Assembly: GCF_010500245.1 (NCBI RefSeq)
Contig: NZ_JAAGOX010000043.1
Coordinates: forward strand, 62,001-126,000
Reading direction: 5' to 3'
DNA length: 64,000 bases
DNA from: Ruegeria sp. PrR005
GTDB taxonomy: Bacteria; Pseudomonadota; Alphaproteobacteria; Rhodobacterales; Rhodobacteraceae
A program made the translations under genes and the position numbers. The notes below the pieces were generated by a model. The model saw only the letters and a list, made by a program, of their open reading frames with translations. It searched no databases and had not been told where the DNA came from. Of this stretch, positions 33,864 to 62,457 are shown piece by piece (positions within the stretch are counted from its first letter, which is position 1; each line of letters begins with the position of its first letter).

Positions 33864-33931
33864 CTCTGCCCGCCCGTCTTGTTCGCACCGGGCATGTAAC
33901 CCGGATCGCCCTCCGCGAACAACGGCAAAGC

Positions 33932-58292: not shown

Positions 58293-58648
58293 TGTCTTTC
58301 CGTCCCCCAGAATGAAAACGGCGGGTTGATCTGCTGCCACTGATCAACCCGCCGACTTTGCCCGCCTTGCGGGGTGTCCGACTGCGCGCGCCACCTGGGG
58401 GGATGTCTGCTCGCTCGCGCGCCGGATCTCTTGGTTCGATGAAAGCGAGATGCCTGTATGAAACCTTGTTTTTATTGGTTGGGGTCGTTTGGTGCCCCTG
58501 TCGCCTCGTCCTCATCGGATGAACAAGGGATGCCATGGGAATTCATGGAAATCAACAGCATTCTGCGGCCCTTTTCTGGAATCAACAACGGAGAGACACA
58601 CACAATATCATGTGAAAGGCAGGTTCTTCACCATAAGTTGGAAGTTAT
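58293..58648 (-). other. Long mraZ leader
   Basis: About 350 untranslated bases between the candidate promoter and mraZ, containing the hairpin above. No gene or known riboswitch was recognised. Confidence 0.45.
58319..58354 (-). terminator. Intrinsic-terminator-like hairpin in the mraZ leader
   Basis: A perfect 13-bp stem (CGGCGGGTTGATC and its complement) with a 10-base loop, followed on the minus strand by TTTTCATTCT, directly before the mraZ ribosome-binding region. It has all parts of a Rho-independent terminator, yet lies inside the probable leader of the first dcw gene, so it may attenuate or gate the whole operon. Confidence 0.7.
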
Positions 58649-58677
58649 TTTCTCTCACTAACCATATGTAGTGTCAA
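58649..58677 (-). promoter_or_regulatory. Candidate mraZ promoter
   Basis: Consensus -35 TTGACA (58677-58672) followed after 17 bases by a weak -10 (GAGAAA, 58654-58649), just downstream of the MraZ boxes. A start here gives a leader of about 350 bases. Confidence 0.45.
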
Positions 58678-58685
58678 AAATTCGT

Positions 58686-58710
58686 CCCCCCGATTTCCCA
58701 GAAATTCCCA
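58686..58710 (-). promoter_or_regulatory. MraZ operator (TGGGN boxes with 5-base spacers)
   Basis: Minus strand: TGGGA (58710-58706), ATTTC, TGGGA (58700-58696), AATCG, GGGGG (58690-58686). Two perfect TGGGN boxes and a third degenerate one, each 10 bp apart, match the known MraZ-binding pattern of repeated TGGGN with 5-nt spacing. It lies 8 bases before the TTGACA element. Confidence 0.75.
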
Positions 58711-58744
58711 GAAAATTTTCAATGGCTGTTCCACTTCAGCACAT

Positions 58745-58759
58745 GTTCACTAAATGTTC
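58745..58759. promoter_or_regulatory. LexA (SOS) box upstream of the dcw cluster
   Basis: GTTCACTAAATGTTC is an exact GTTC-N7-GTTC, the alphaproteobacterial LexA site. It lies 35 bases from the MraZ boxes and 68 bases upstream of the candidate -35. Confidence 0.6.
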
Positions 58760-59163
58760 CAGATTTTCTACTCCGAATCACCATTTTATACCTGAGGCTA
58801 TGGACCGAATTTGACGCGCCCCTCGCAGCGACCCACGATTTCCCATGGAATGACCCTACCCGCGTGACGCGCATGAAAGAGGCGCGACGTCCGCGACCGA
58901 ATCTTTGGAGTTCACCAGGGCGTTCCAACGGAGTGATCCCATACTCGCCATGGATCTCGTCATTGCCCGTCATTTTTTTGCGCCGCAAAATAAGTCACGT
59001 GGCGTAACTTTCGGGCGCCAAAGCTTTAACGTTCATTCCAGCATGGCCGACGCTCCATACCGGCACCGCAGAAACGTCAATGAAAAAAGGAAAATTACGC
59101 GATTCCATAGGGTTTCGTGGCAAGTATGCGTTTGCTGCATAGCAGCATTGATCCGAAAAACTA
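58760..59163. other. Gene-free divergent region between mraZ and the DUF1127 gene
   Basis: About 400 lower-GC bases without a supported gene; short open frames here lack ribosome sites and family resemblance. Contains GANTC sites at 58775-58779, 58899-58903 and 59101-59105, and the palindrome listed below. Confidence 0.5.
59133..59147. promoter_or_regulatory. TGCTGC-ATA-GCAGCA palindrome before the DUF1127 promoter
   Basis: Perfect inverted repeat with 3-base spacer, 17 bases upstream of the candidate -35. The core CTGC-N3-GCAG equals the site I recall for PhaR in Rhodobacter and Paracoccus. Which protein binds here is not known. Confidence 0.4.
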
Positions 59164-59191
59164 TTGTGCAGATGCAGCATTCGCCTATCTT
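59164..59191 (+). promoter_or_regulatory. Candidate promoter of the DUF1127-sRNA unit
   Basis: TTGTGC (59164-59169), 16-base spacer, TATCTT (59186-59191), about 57 bases before the ATG. In Rhodobacter sphaeroides the homologous unit uses RpoH-type sigma factors; this pair would fit a sigma-70 or RpoH promoter loosely. Confidence 0.45.
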
Positions 59192-59247
59192 CGTTCTCAA
59201 CAGGGCGCCACCACGAGGCGCTCAAGGAACAGATACGGAATACGACG

Positions 59248-59472
59248 ATGGCGATGGCAAGCGAACATACCGCAGTGAAGGTCGAACAAGGGTTCGGCAT
59301 TTCGGCGATGATCGAAGCAGCGATGGCGCGCTTCGCCCGGTACCGCGTGTACCGCGAGACGGTCAATGAGTTGTCGAAACTCTCCGGCCGTGAATTGGCG
59401 GATCTTGGCCTTCACCGGTCGATGATCAAACGCGTCGCTCTTCAGGCGGCGCAAGAATACACCGCGCGCTAA
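59248..59472 (+). CDS. DUF1127 small protein, CcaF1-like
   Basis: 74 residues from ATG 59248 (MAMASEHTAVKVEQGFGIS). The C-terminal half is the DUF1127 domain: YRETVNELSKLSGRELADLGLHRSMIKRVALQA, rich in Arg and Lys. DUF1127 proteins are small RNA-binding proteins; in Rhodobacter sphaeroides CcaF1 is encoded directly upstream of the CcsR1-4 sRNAs, is cotranscribed with them and influences their maturation. The six hairpins here start 19 bases after the stop, exactly that layout. Expression is expected under oxidative, heat or stationary-phase stress, by analogy. Confidence 0.85.
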   Translation: MAMASEHTAVKVEQGFGISAMIEAAMARFARYRVYRETVNELSKLSGRELADLGLHRSMIKRVALQAAQEYTAR

Positions 59473-59490
59473 GCGCAAGAGTTTTACGGA

Positions 59491-59521
59491 TCAGGCCTCT
59501 CTCCTCCTCCCTGGGGCCTGA
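59491..59521 (+). ncRNA. CcsR-like hairpin 1
   Basis: Stem TCAGGCC/GGCCTGA (7 bp), 17-base loop containing CTCTCCTCCTCCCT. Shortest stem of the array and nearest the DUF1127 stop. Confidence 0.8.
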
Positions 59522-59527
59522 AACAAG

Positions 59528-59561
59528 GCGGCGGCATCCTCCTCCTCCCTGATGCCGCCGC
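59528..59561 (+). ncRNA. CcsR-like hairpin 2
   Basis: Stem GCGGCGGCATC/GATGCCGCCGC (11 bp perfect), 12-base loop CTCCTCCTCCCT. Confidence 0.87.
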
Positions 59562-59592
59562 ATCAATACCGGCAAAGAAAGCCGGATGCCGA

Positions 59593-59625
59593 TACACCGG
59601 GCTCTCCTCCTCCCTGCCTGGTGTA
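59593..59625 (+). ncRNA. CcsR-like hairpin 3
   Basis: Stem TACACCGGGC/GCCTGGTGTA (10 bp, one G-U), 13-base loop TCTCCTCCTCCCT. A small CCGGC/GCCGG hairpin (59569-59585) separates it from hairpin 2. Confidence 0.87.
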
Positions 59626-59632
59626 GAAAGCG

Positions 59633-59667
59633 CGCGGCGGTGCTCTCCTCCTCCCTGCACCGCCGCG
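59633..59667 (+). ncRNA. CcsR-like hairpin 4
   Basis: Stem CGCGGCGGTGC/GCACCGCCGCG (11 bp perfect), loop TCTCCTCCTCCCT. Confidence 0.87.
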
Positions 59668-59701
59668 ACCCTCATACCGGGCGTCGATCCCGGGTTCGGA
59701 T

Positions 59702-59733
59702 ACATCGGGGCCTCCTCCTCCCTGCTCCGGTGT
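59702..59733 (+). ncRNA. CcsR-like hairpin 5
   Basis: Stem ACATCGGGGC/GCTCCGGTGT (10 bp with two G-U pairs), loop CTCCTCCTCCCT. The two G-U pairs are changes that keep pairing. A CCGGG/CCCGG mini-hairpin (59677-59693) lies before it. Confidence 0.87.
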
Positions 59734-59740
59734 TGCAAAG

Positions 59741-59789
59741 AACGGCGGTTCCCCTTCTCCTCCCTGGGAACCGCCGTTTTTGTTTTTTG
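59741..59789 (+). ncRNA. CcsR-like hairpin 6 with terminator
   Basis: Stem AACGGCGGTTCCC/GGGAACCGCCGTT (13 bp perfect), 12-base loop CTTCTCCTCCCT, followed by a T-tract (59777-59788). It serves both as sRNA and as Rho-independent terminator for the whole unit. Confidence 0.9.
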
Positions 59790-62343: not shown

Positions 62344-62457
62344 GCAAGTTCCCGAAAATTCCCGCAAACACAGTGCATTCGCTGCGTTGCAGAATTTTTT
62401 GTCAAGGATGCCCGGCAGGACTGGACAATTACGCAACGTCACAGGTTAATGCGCCGC

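Follow-up and report, generated by a model that had tools for sequence, protein, structure and literature searches.

In Rhodobacter sphaeroides, an RpoHI/RpoHII promoter drives a transcript that comprises ccaF1 and the small RNAs CcsR1–4, and RNase E helps to excise the latter (PMC10253847, PMC8625941). RNase E cleavage releases the four RNAs, and three of the 3′ ends that are enriched without PNPase overlap with RNase E-dependent ends (PMC7866481). The CcaF1 protein is itself RNA-binding and takes part in CcsR maturation (PMC10253847), and a transcript of the same organism, RS0680a, has been reported to have two stem-loops (PMC3927594). In S. meliloti, NfeR1 carries three redundant CCUCCUCCC loops, which silence ABC-transporter mRNAs and ntrB (PMC10746234).

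We analysed a window of 64,000 nucleotides (by which we mean the whole stretch of DNA under study) from a genome of 5.07 Mb in 57 contigs. A short DUF1127 gene in this window lies between mraZ and a gene for a UvrD-type helicase, which are encoded on the minus strand, and an array of six hairpins stands directly downstream of it (Table 1). The encoded protein shares 93% identity with its counterpart in Ruegeria marina. A preliminary description of this DNA had taken the hairpins for a CcsR/cuckoo array and the gene before them for a DUF1127 gene like ccaF1; the loop motif, the stem pairing and the PF06568 match all bear this out. The locus genuinely belongs to the CcsR/cuckoo kind, and its size is the commonest among its near relatives.

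Table 1. Features of the ccaF1-CcsR locus in the window (positions are those of the whole stretch)
Feature	Position	Strand	Evidence
Candidate PhaR operator, CTGC-ATA-GCAG (CTGCATAGCAG)	59135..59145	.	Fits the R. sphaeroides PhaR site CTGCNNNGCAG exactly
RpoH-type promoter-like element, ATTG-N17-CCTATCTTCG	59163..59193	+	Conserved block in the window aligned with 15 relatives
Degenerate second dyad, GTGC-N4-GCAG, over the −35 region	59166..59177	.	Start 31 bp from the first dyad
ccaF1-type DUF1127 gene, 74 aa	59248..59472	+	PF06568, E 1.3e-14
CcsR unit 1 (hairpins 59491-59521 and 59528-59561)	59491..59561	+	Rfam CcsR1 at 59483-59566, 43.0 bits, E 1.8e-9
Inter-unit mini-hairpin CCGGC-N7-GCCGG, AU-rich CAAUA before it	59569..59585	+	Local stem predicted in 50/51 linkers (Ruegeria-type set, counted without a shuffle control)
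CcsR unit 2 (hairpins 59593-59625 and 59633-59667)	59593..59667	+	Rfam CcsR1 at 59591-59671, 25.6 bits, E 2.6e-4
Inter-unit mini-hairpin CCGGG-N7-CCCGG	59677..59693	+	Local stem predicted in 49/50 linkers (Ruegeria-type set, counted without a shuffle control)
CcsR unit 3 (hairpins 59702-59733 and 59738-59781)	59702..59781	+	Rfam CcsR1 at 59699-59782, 36.4 bits, E 1.6e-7

Six hairpins with a common loop

The stems of hairpins 1 to 6 comprise 9, 11, 10, 11, 10 and 16 bp, and the loops read (U)CUCCUCCUCCCU, or CUUCUCCUCCCU in the last hairpin, which is followed by a T-tract. CCUCCUCCC is present exactly in five of the six loops; the sixth has UUCUCCUCCC, one letter different. The 328-nt stretch of the array folds with a z-score of −8.1, none of 100 dinucleotide shuffles being equally stable. 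In a scan of the plus strand of the 64-kb window, CCUCC lay in the loop of 24 hairpins, and CUCCUCCC was found in the six of the array only. Six copies of the exact loop 13-mer are present in the 5.07-Mb genome, five of them within the array, and the reversed control has none. The six consecutive hairpins and the final T-tract, noted in the preliminary description, are confirmed. Its statement that the stems vary also stands, but the range given there, 7–13 bp, does not (9–16 bp by our measurement). It had further proposed that loop variants in hairpins 1 and 6 address separate targets, an idea that is not supported: the loop of hairpin 1 is the standard one, and L013 and L014, which are the nearest relatives, do not share the variant of hairpin 6.

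A solitary hairpin with this kind of loop, GCTGACA-CTCCTCCTCCC-TGTCAGC, was seen on another contig of the same genome (C10, loop at 33917-33929; L001:1496-1520, minus strand). It overlaps the stop codon of a gene that, as judged by eye, encodes a GMC oxidoreductase, and a terminator-like repeat follows. The hairpin was absent from the matches in four congeners, which may be paralogues.

For comparison with relatives, a named sample of 80 loci (L013-L092), mostly of Ruegeria, was fetched using the DUF1127 protein of the window as query; all 80 have hairpins behind the DUF1127 gene. No array was found behind the five other DUF1127 genes of the window's own genome, the core words within 700 nt numbering 1, 0, 2, 0 and 0. 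Around the locus, an inverted repeat enclosing the DUF1127 gene (59149-59169 / 59473-59493) was considered and rejected: by eye, it is not conserved in the more distant of 15 aligned relatives, and the inferred transcription start is downstream of its left arm. The mraZ leader of R. sphaeroides contains the sRNA UpsM (PMC5089854). The corresponding leader in the window (58341-58900, minus strand) gave no Rfam match at E values up to 5, and its terminator-like sites were no more numerous than in shuffles. At the array locus L111, a sub-threshold match to the suhB/MmgR RNA (31.9 of 41 bits) was noticed at 1272-1348 on the minus strand, which is the strand opposite the array, past the array end.

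Conservation of stem pairing and of the loop core

The preliminary description had named stems that change without keeping their pairing as one observation that would speak against it. We found that pairing is kept. When 317 loops at 51 loci were taken by exact sequence alone, not chosen by pairing, 93% of them had a stem of at least 5 bp; the proportion was 27% when the arms were swapped between genera and 38% when they were swapped within an array. In a set of 51 Ruegeria-type loci, 99.5–100% of the cells in hairpins 1, 2, 4 and the last one are paired. Two-sided changes were seen in 7/7, 10/10, 10/10 and 12/12 pairs of these hairpins, respectively, a count that is partly circular because pairing had served to find the stems.

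CCUCCUCCC is unchanged in 379 of the 443 parsed loops, the lengths of which range from 7 to 25 nt (most commonly 13, 12 and 10), those of at least 18 nt probably reflecting misplaced stems. That this core remains constant while the loop length varies fits base pairing. Computed duplex energies favour the loop as well, partly by construction.

The hairpins are arranged in two-hairpin units

The Rfam model CcsR1 (RF02791) covers 83 positions and two hairpins, and has a gathering cut-off of 65.3 bits. A scan of the 64-kb window at the gathering thresholds gave no match, CcsR1 and ar14 emerging only below their cut-offs. In a permissive scan, CcsR1 matched the window three times, at full length and each time in the register of a hairpin pair, with scores of 43.0, 36.4 and 25.6 bits, none of which reaches the cut-off. 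Because of these scores, we file the array under the wider CcsR/cuckoo kind and not under RF02791.

The spacing of the hairpins in relatives has the same period. In arrays with an even number of hairpins and all stems found, the core-to-core distance alternates between a median of 30 nt (odd to even, 154 cases) and a median of 55 nt (even to odd, 113 cases). Linkers have a median length of 6 nt inside pairs and of 32 nt between pairs. A GCGGC-like 5′ arm was present in 86/113 second hairpins of the pairs and in 9/154 first hairpins. At 20 loci of the family sample described below, compared by hand, the number of CcsR1 matches equalled half the hairpin count in 11 cases and was smaller in nine, never larger. 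Two observations count against the unit model: 16 of the 58 family arrays have odd hairpin numbers, and the three-hairpin ar14 model also matches the window, with 49.1 bits over unit 3 and the linker.

Since RS0680a has two stem-loops and CcsR1 fits hairpin pairs, the window array is to be counted as three units, against four in R. sphaeroides, where CcsR1–4 should amount to eight hairpins by analogy. The preliminary description, in calling the array an expanded six-copy version, had set hairpins against units; the expansion is a misreading. The last hairpin of unit 3, by its T-tract, looks like a Rho-independent terminator as well.

Array size among relatives

The hairpins being paired, units are the proper measure for comparing array sizes. 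Among the named loci, arrays of six hairpins are the most frequent (35/80, or 39/81 with the window included and a second parsing script), and 74 of these 81 loci have even hairpin counts. The sizes depend on the parsing script, the stopping rules of which differ, so that L079 is read as 6 or 2 hairpins and G027 as 2 or 10. We also compiled a family sample, which overlaps with the named one and consists of the best DUF1127 match in the 60 strongest of 93 matching genomes (100 searched), the own genome and one congener being excluded. With the window included, 58 of 61 family loci have arrays of 2–17 hairpins. Even counts (42) outnumber odd counts (16), with a one-sided p value of 4e-4 that assumes independence of the loci, which are not independent. 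Three of the 61 loci have no array; the genomes G092 and G107 carry the loop elsewhere, and therefore their DUF1127 match is probably a paralogue.

Across 149 family genomes, the exact loop 13-mer occurs in 96, and 33 have at least five copies on one strand, while the reversed 13-mer is mostly absent and reaches at most three per strand. The two loci L126 and L116 have seven CcsR units each. L126 contains one unit that scores above the CcsR1 cut-off, and so does L144. Several tandem units are nearly identical in L126 (genome G051) and in L116 (genome G088), and their sequences suggest a recent amplification of whole units. The array size thus varies widely across Rhodobacteraceae, raising the question of whether tandem duplication serves to adjust the sRNA dosage.

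Linkers between the units

The mini-hairpins that the preliminary description had pointed out in two of the linkers proved to be real, and they are conserved at nearly all of the Ruegeria-type loci (Table 1). More generally, between-pair linkers of at least 15 nt fold locally into a small stem, with −3 kcal/mol or better, in 84/91 cases, a figure obtained without a shuffle control. The mini-hairpins are placed precisely in the linkers between units, each preceded by a few AU-rich bases, which makes cleavage at these points the most natural expectation, and their conservation would suit a role in processing. From R. sphaeroides CcaF1, a role in maturation may be expected for the DUF1127 protein of the window.

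A promoter-like element and a PhaR-type operator

The promoter-like element upstream of the DUF1127 gene resembles what we take to be the alphaproteobacterial RpoH consensus, CTTG-N17-18-CYTATNTNNG. The pattern was found at 53 of the 81 named loci including the window, and at 21 of 58 family loci versus three on the opposite strand.

Phasin genes are classical targets of PhaR, and the dyad upstream of the array was compared with their promoters. Among 768 four-base dyads with spacers of 2–4, CTGC-N3-GCAG ranked top upstream of the arrays (36/58; the median dyad, 0), and TGCA-N2-TGCA was the second commonest (29/58). In the named set, 44/81 loci (window included) have CTGC-N3-GCAG, as against 3/84 background upstream regions. 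The site is present upstream of 40/40 fetched orthologues (L278-L317) of a phasin encoded on contig C54 of the own genome, where the next dyad occurs in nine; 31/40 of these regions contain two or more sites (30/40 with two sites 24–32 bp apart), and 9/40 contain one. The orthologues represent 40 of 54 matching genomes, taken near the top of the list with the own genome excluded and with G063, G030, G011 and G032 among the higher ones skipped, and the query was picked after its two promoter sites had been seen. With the loose Pfam phasin model PF09361, the dyad was found in only 1/20 upstream regions, which counts against the PhaR reading. The sequence CTGCNNNGCAG is quoted as the R. sphaeroides PhaR site (PMC12542648). 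PhaR control of the ccaF1-CcsR operon is, in our judgement, a supported prediction. Among the papers listed in literature searches, no title or abstract opening linked CcsR or CcaF1 to PhaR, which is weak evidence for novelty, the term ‘PhaR’ also matching ‘pharmaceutical’.

CTGC-N3-GCAG was additionally noticed upstream of two array-less DUF1127 genes of the same genome (C11:336517 and C32:132841; L170 and L171), and a second time in the window, at 62382, at the start of a frame scanned as an FMN-dependent dehydrogenase.

Candidate targets

The loop of the array is complementary to GGGAGGAG. The pattern GGGAGGAG-N4-11-ATG occurs 40 times in the own genome, a count that includes duplicates, the antisense strand of the array and short ORFs, versus twice for the control. 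Nine of the 30 scanned ORFs encode seven solute-binding and two DctQ proteins. In the genome G088, which belongs to another genus and has a 14-hairpin array, the pattern was found 42 times versus 4 for the control, and solute-binding proteins account for 10 of the 28 scanned ORFs (12 further places lay outside the scan). We also used GAAAGGAG, a Shine-Dalgarno sequence that presumably matches the 16S tail rather than the loop. It gave 24 matches, with solute-binding or DctQ proteins in 0/20 scanned ORFs (Fisher p 0.007 vs 9/30); this control is small and limited to a single genome, and two transport proteins of other kinds, an ABC ATPase and a BCCT carrier, are among its ORFs. These results show an enrichment of TRAP/ABC solute-binding or DctQ proteins among the genes with a loop-matching Shine-Dalgarno sequence. 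The match of the solute-binding genes might have other reasons. Further candidates in the own genome encode an acetyl-CoA synthetase, a PaaA/PaaC-family protein, an enoyl-CoA hydratase and an acyl-CoA ligase-like protein.

Proposed working of the locus and alternative explanations

We consider it likely that the locus is a stress operon with a 3′ UTR that holds three two-hairpin CcsR-type sRNAs blocking the translation of uptake genes, its transcription, processing and pairing being read from the sequence and from described systems. From the RpoH-type promoter, with the PhaR-type operator just upstream, transcription would begin some 45 nt ahead of the DUF1127 gene, and it would end at hairpin 6. 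RNase E, assisted by the DUF1127 protein, would then cut the long inter-unit linkers near the mini-hairpins, giving two-hairpin RNAs of about 80 nt. Since every hairpin has a nearly identical anti-Shine-Dalgarno loop, the six loops should be redundant. They would pair with mRNAs having GGGAGGAG as their Shine-Dalgarno sequence and thereby block ribosome binding, so that uptake and catabolic proteins would be lowered, the TRAP and ABC solute-binding proteins being prominent candidates. The number of units would set the dosage and not the choice of targets, and PhaR perhaps gates the block of the uptake genes.

The near-identical loops on variable stems, repeated in tandem 2–17 times per array, could instead form a protein sponge of the kind that CsrB is for CsrA, titrating a pyrimidine-binding protein, perhaps Hfq or the DUF1127 protein; the RNA-binding CcaF1 is indeed encoded on the same transcript as the CcsR RNAs (PMC10253847). 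We regard this as improbable, given that the loops are complementary to the Shine-Dalgarno sequence, that a length of 7–25 nt is more in keeping with pairing than with a protein site of fixed size, that the candidate targets form a functional class, and that pairing is the mode of action of NfeR1, which shares the loop motif (PMC10746234). It is even harder to believe that the hairpins serve mainly as stabilisers of the mRNA 3′ end and as a terminator for the DUF1127 gene, the loop being kept for handling by an RNase or by Hfq. The location of the array in the 3′ UTR and the terminator-like last hairpin are in line with such a role, which, however, needs neither a loop motif common to 379/443 hairpins nor units in a fixed register.

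A different doubt concerns the operator, which could be bound by another regulator than PhaR, for example one of the LysR type such as LsrB/VtlR; LsrB activates nfeR1 in S. meliloti (PMC10746234). The rarity of the dyad in the PF09361 search and the 22 of 58 array loci without an exact CTGC-N3-GCAG site both speak for this alternative. It has to contend with the regular occurrence of the site, in two or more copies in 31/40 cases, upstream of the orthologues of the C54 phasin, and with the published R. sphaeroides PhaR site, which is the identical sequence (PMC12542648). On balance, we think another regulator unlikely, though it deserves more weight than the sponge or the stabiliser.

Returning to PhaR as the regulator, we put forward tentatively, and with somewhat less than even confidence, a wider scheme for the family. 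The ccaF1-CcsR operon would belong to the PhaR regulon throughout the family and would be switched on by PHB granules that titrate PhaR, or by heat or oxidative stress via RpoH. Its loops would throttle TRAP/ABC uptake and acyl-CoA catabolism, and the array would be a dosage device evolving by two-hairpin units, from about one to eight of them. If true, this would couple carbon storage to carbon import. The surprising parts, new here, are the PhaR-type operator at the promoter and the solute-binding class of the targets. Together, the operator and the target set predict that the PHB status controls the CcsR RNAs and that the CcsR RNAs limit transporter synthesis.

Relation to known systems

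The R. sphaeroides ccaF1-CcsR1–4 locus (RF02791) presumably also lies near mraZ, as the window array does. In both loci, two-hairpin RNAs with CCUCCUCCC loops stand in tandem behind a DUF1127 gene, and the promoter of the RpoH type in R. sphaeroides may have its counterpart in the promoter-like element of the window. They differ in the number of units, three in the window versus four, and in the stems, which have diverged in the window so that its Rfam scores fall below the cut-off. The PhaR-type operator described here for the window is absent from the available part of the R. sphaeroides account.

NfeR1/alpha-r14 of S. meliloti (RF02344) resembles the window array in its redundant CCUCCUCCC anti-Shine-Dalgarno loops and in its targets, mostly transporter genes, which in the window are candidates. 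It differs in having three hairpins and its own sigma-70 promoter, with no DUF1127 gene mentioned in the part of the account at hand. The matches of the alpha-r14 model in the window, 49.1 and 43.3 bits, do not reach the cut-off of 58.8 bits. We suggest that the window array works like NfeR1/alpha-r14, without classing it as a member. The operator recalls MmgR of S. meliloti, a PHB-linked sRNA gene repressed by PhaR (AniA) (PMC12542648). MmgR is a different RNA, and the action of PhaR in the window is a prediction.

The cuckoo family and the CIN1 locus (Reinkensmeier and Giegerich 2015, quoted in PMC10253847) share with the window the loop motif, the variable stems and the short DUF1127 genes. 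For the related RNAs, hairpin numbers of two, three or four are given in PMC3927594, whereas the arrays of the window and its relatives are parsed as up to 17, mostly in steps of a pair.
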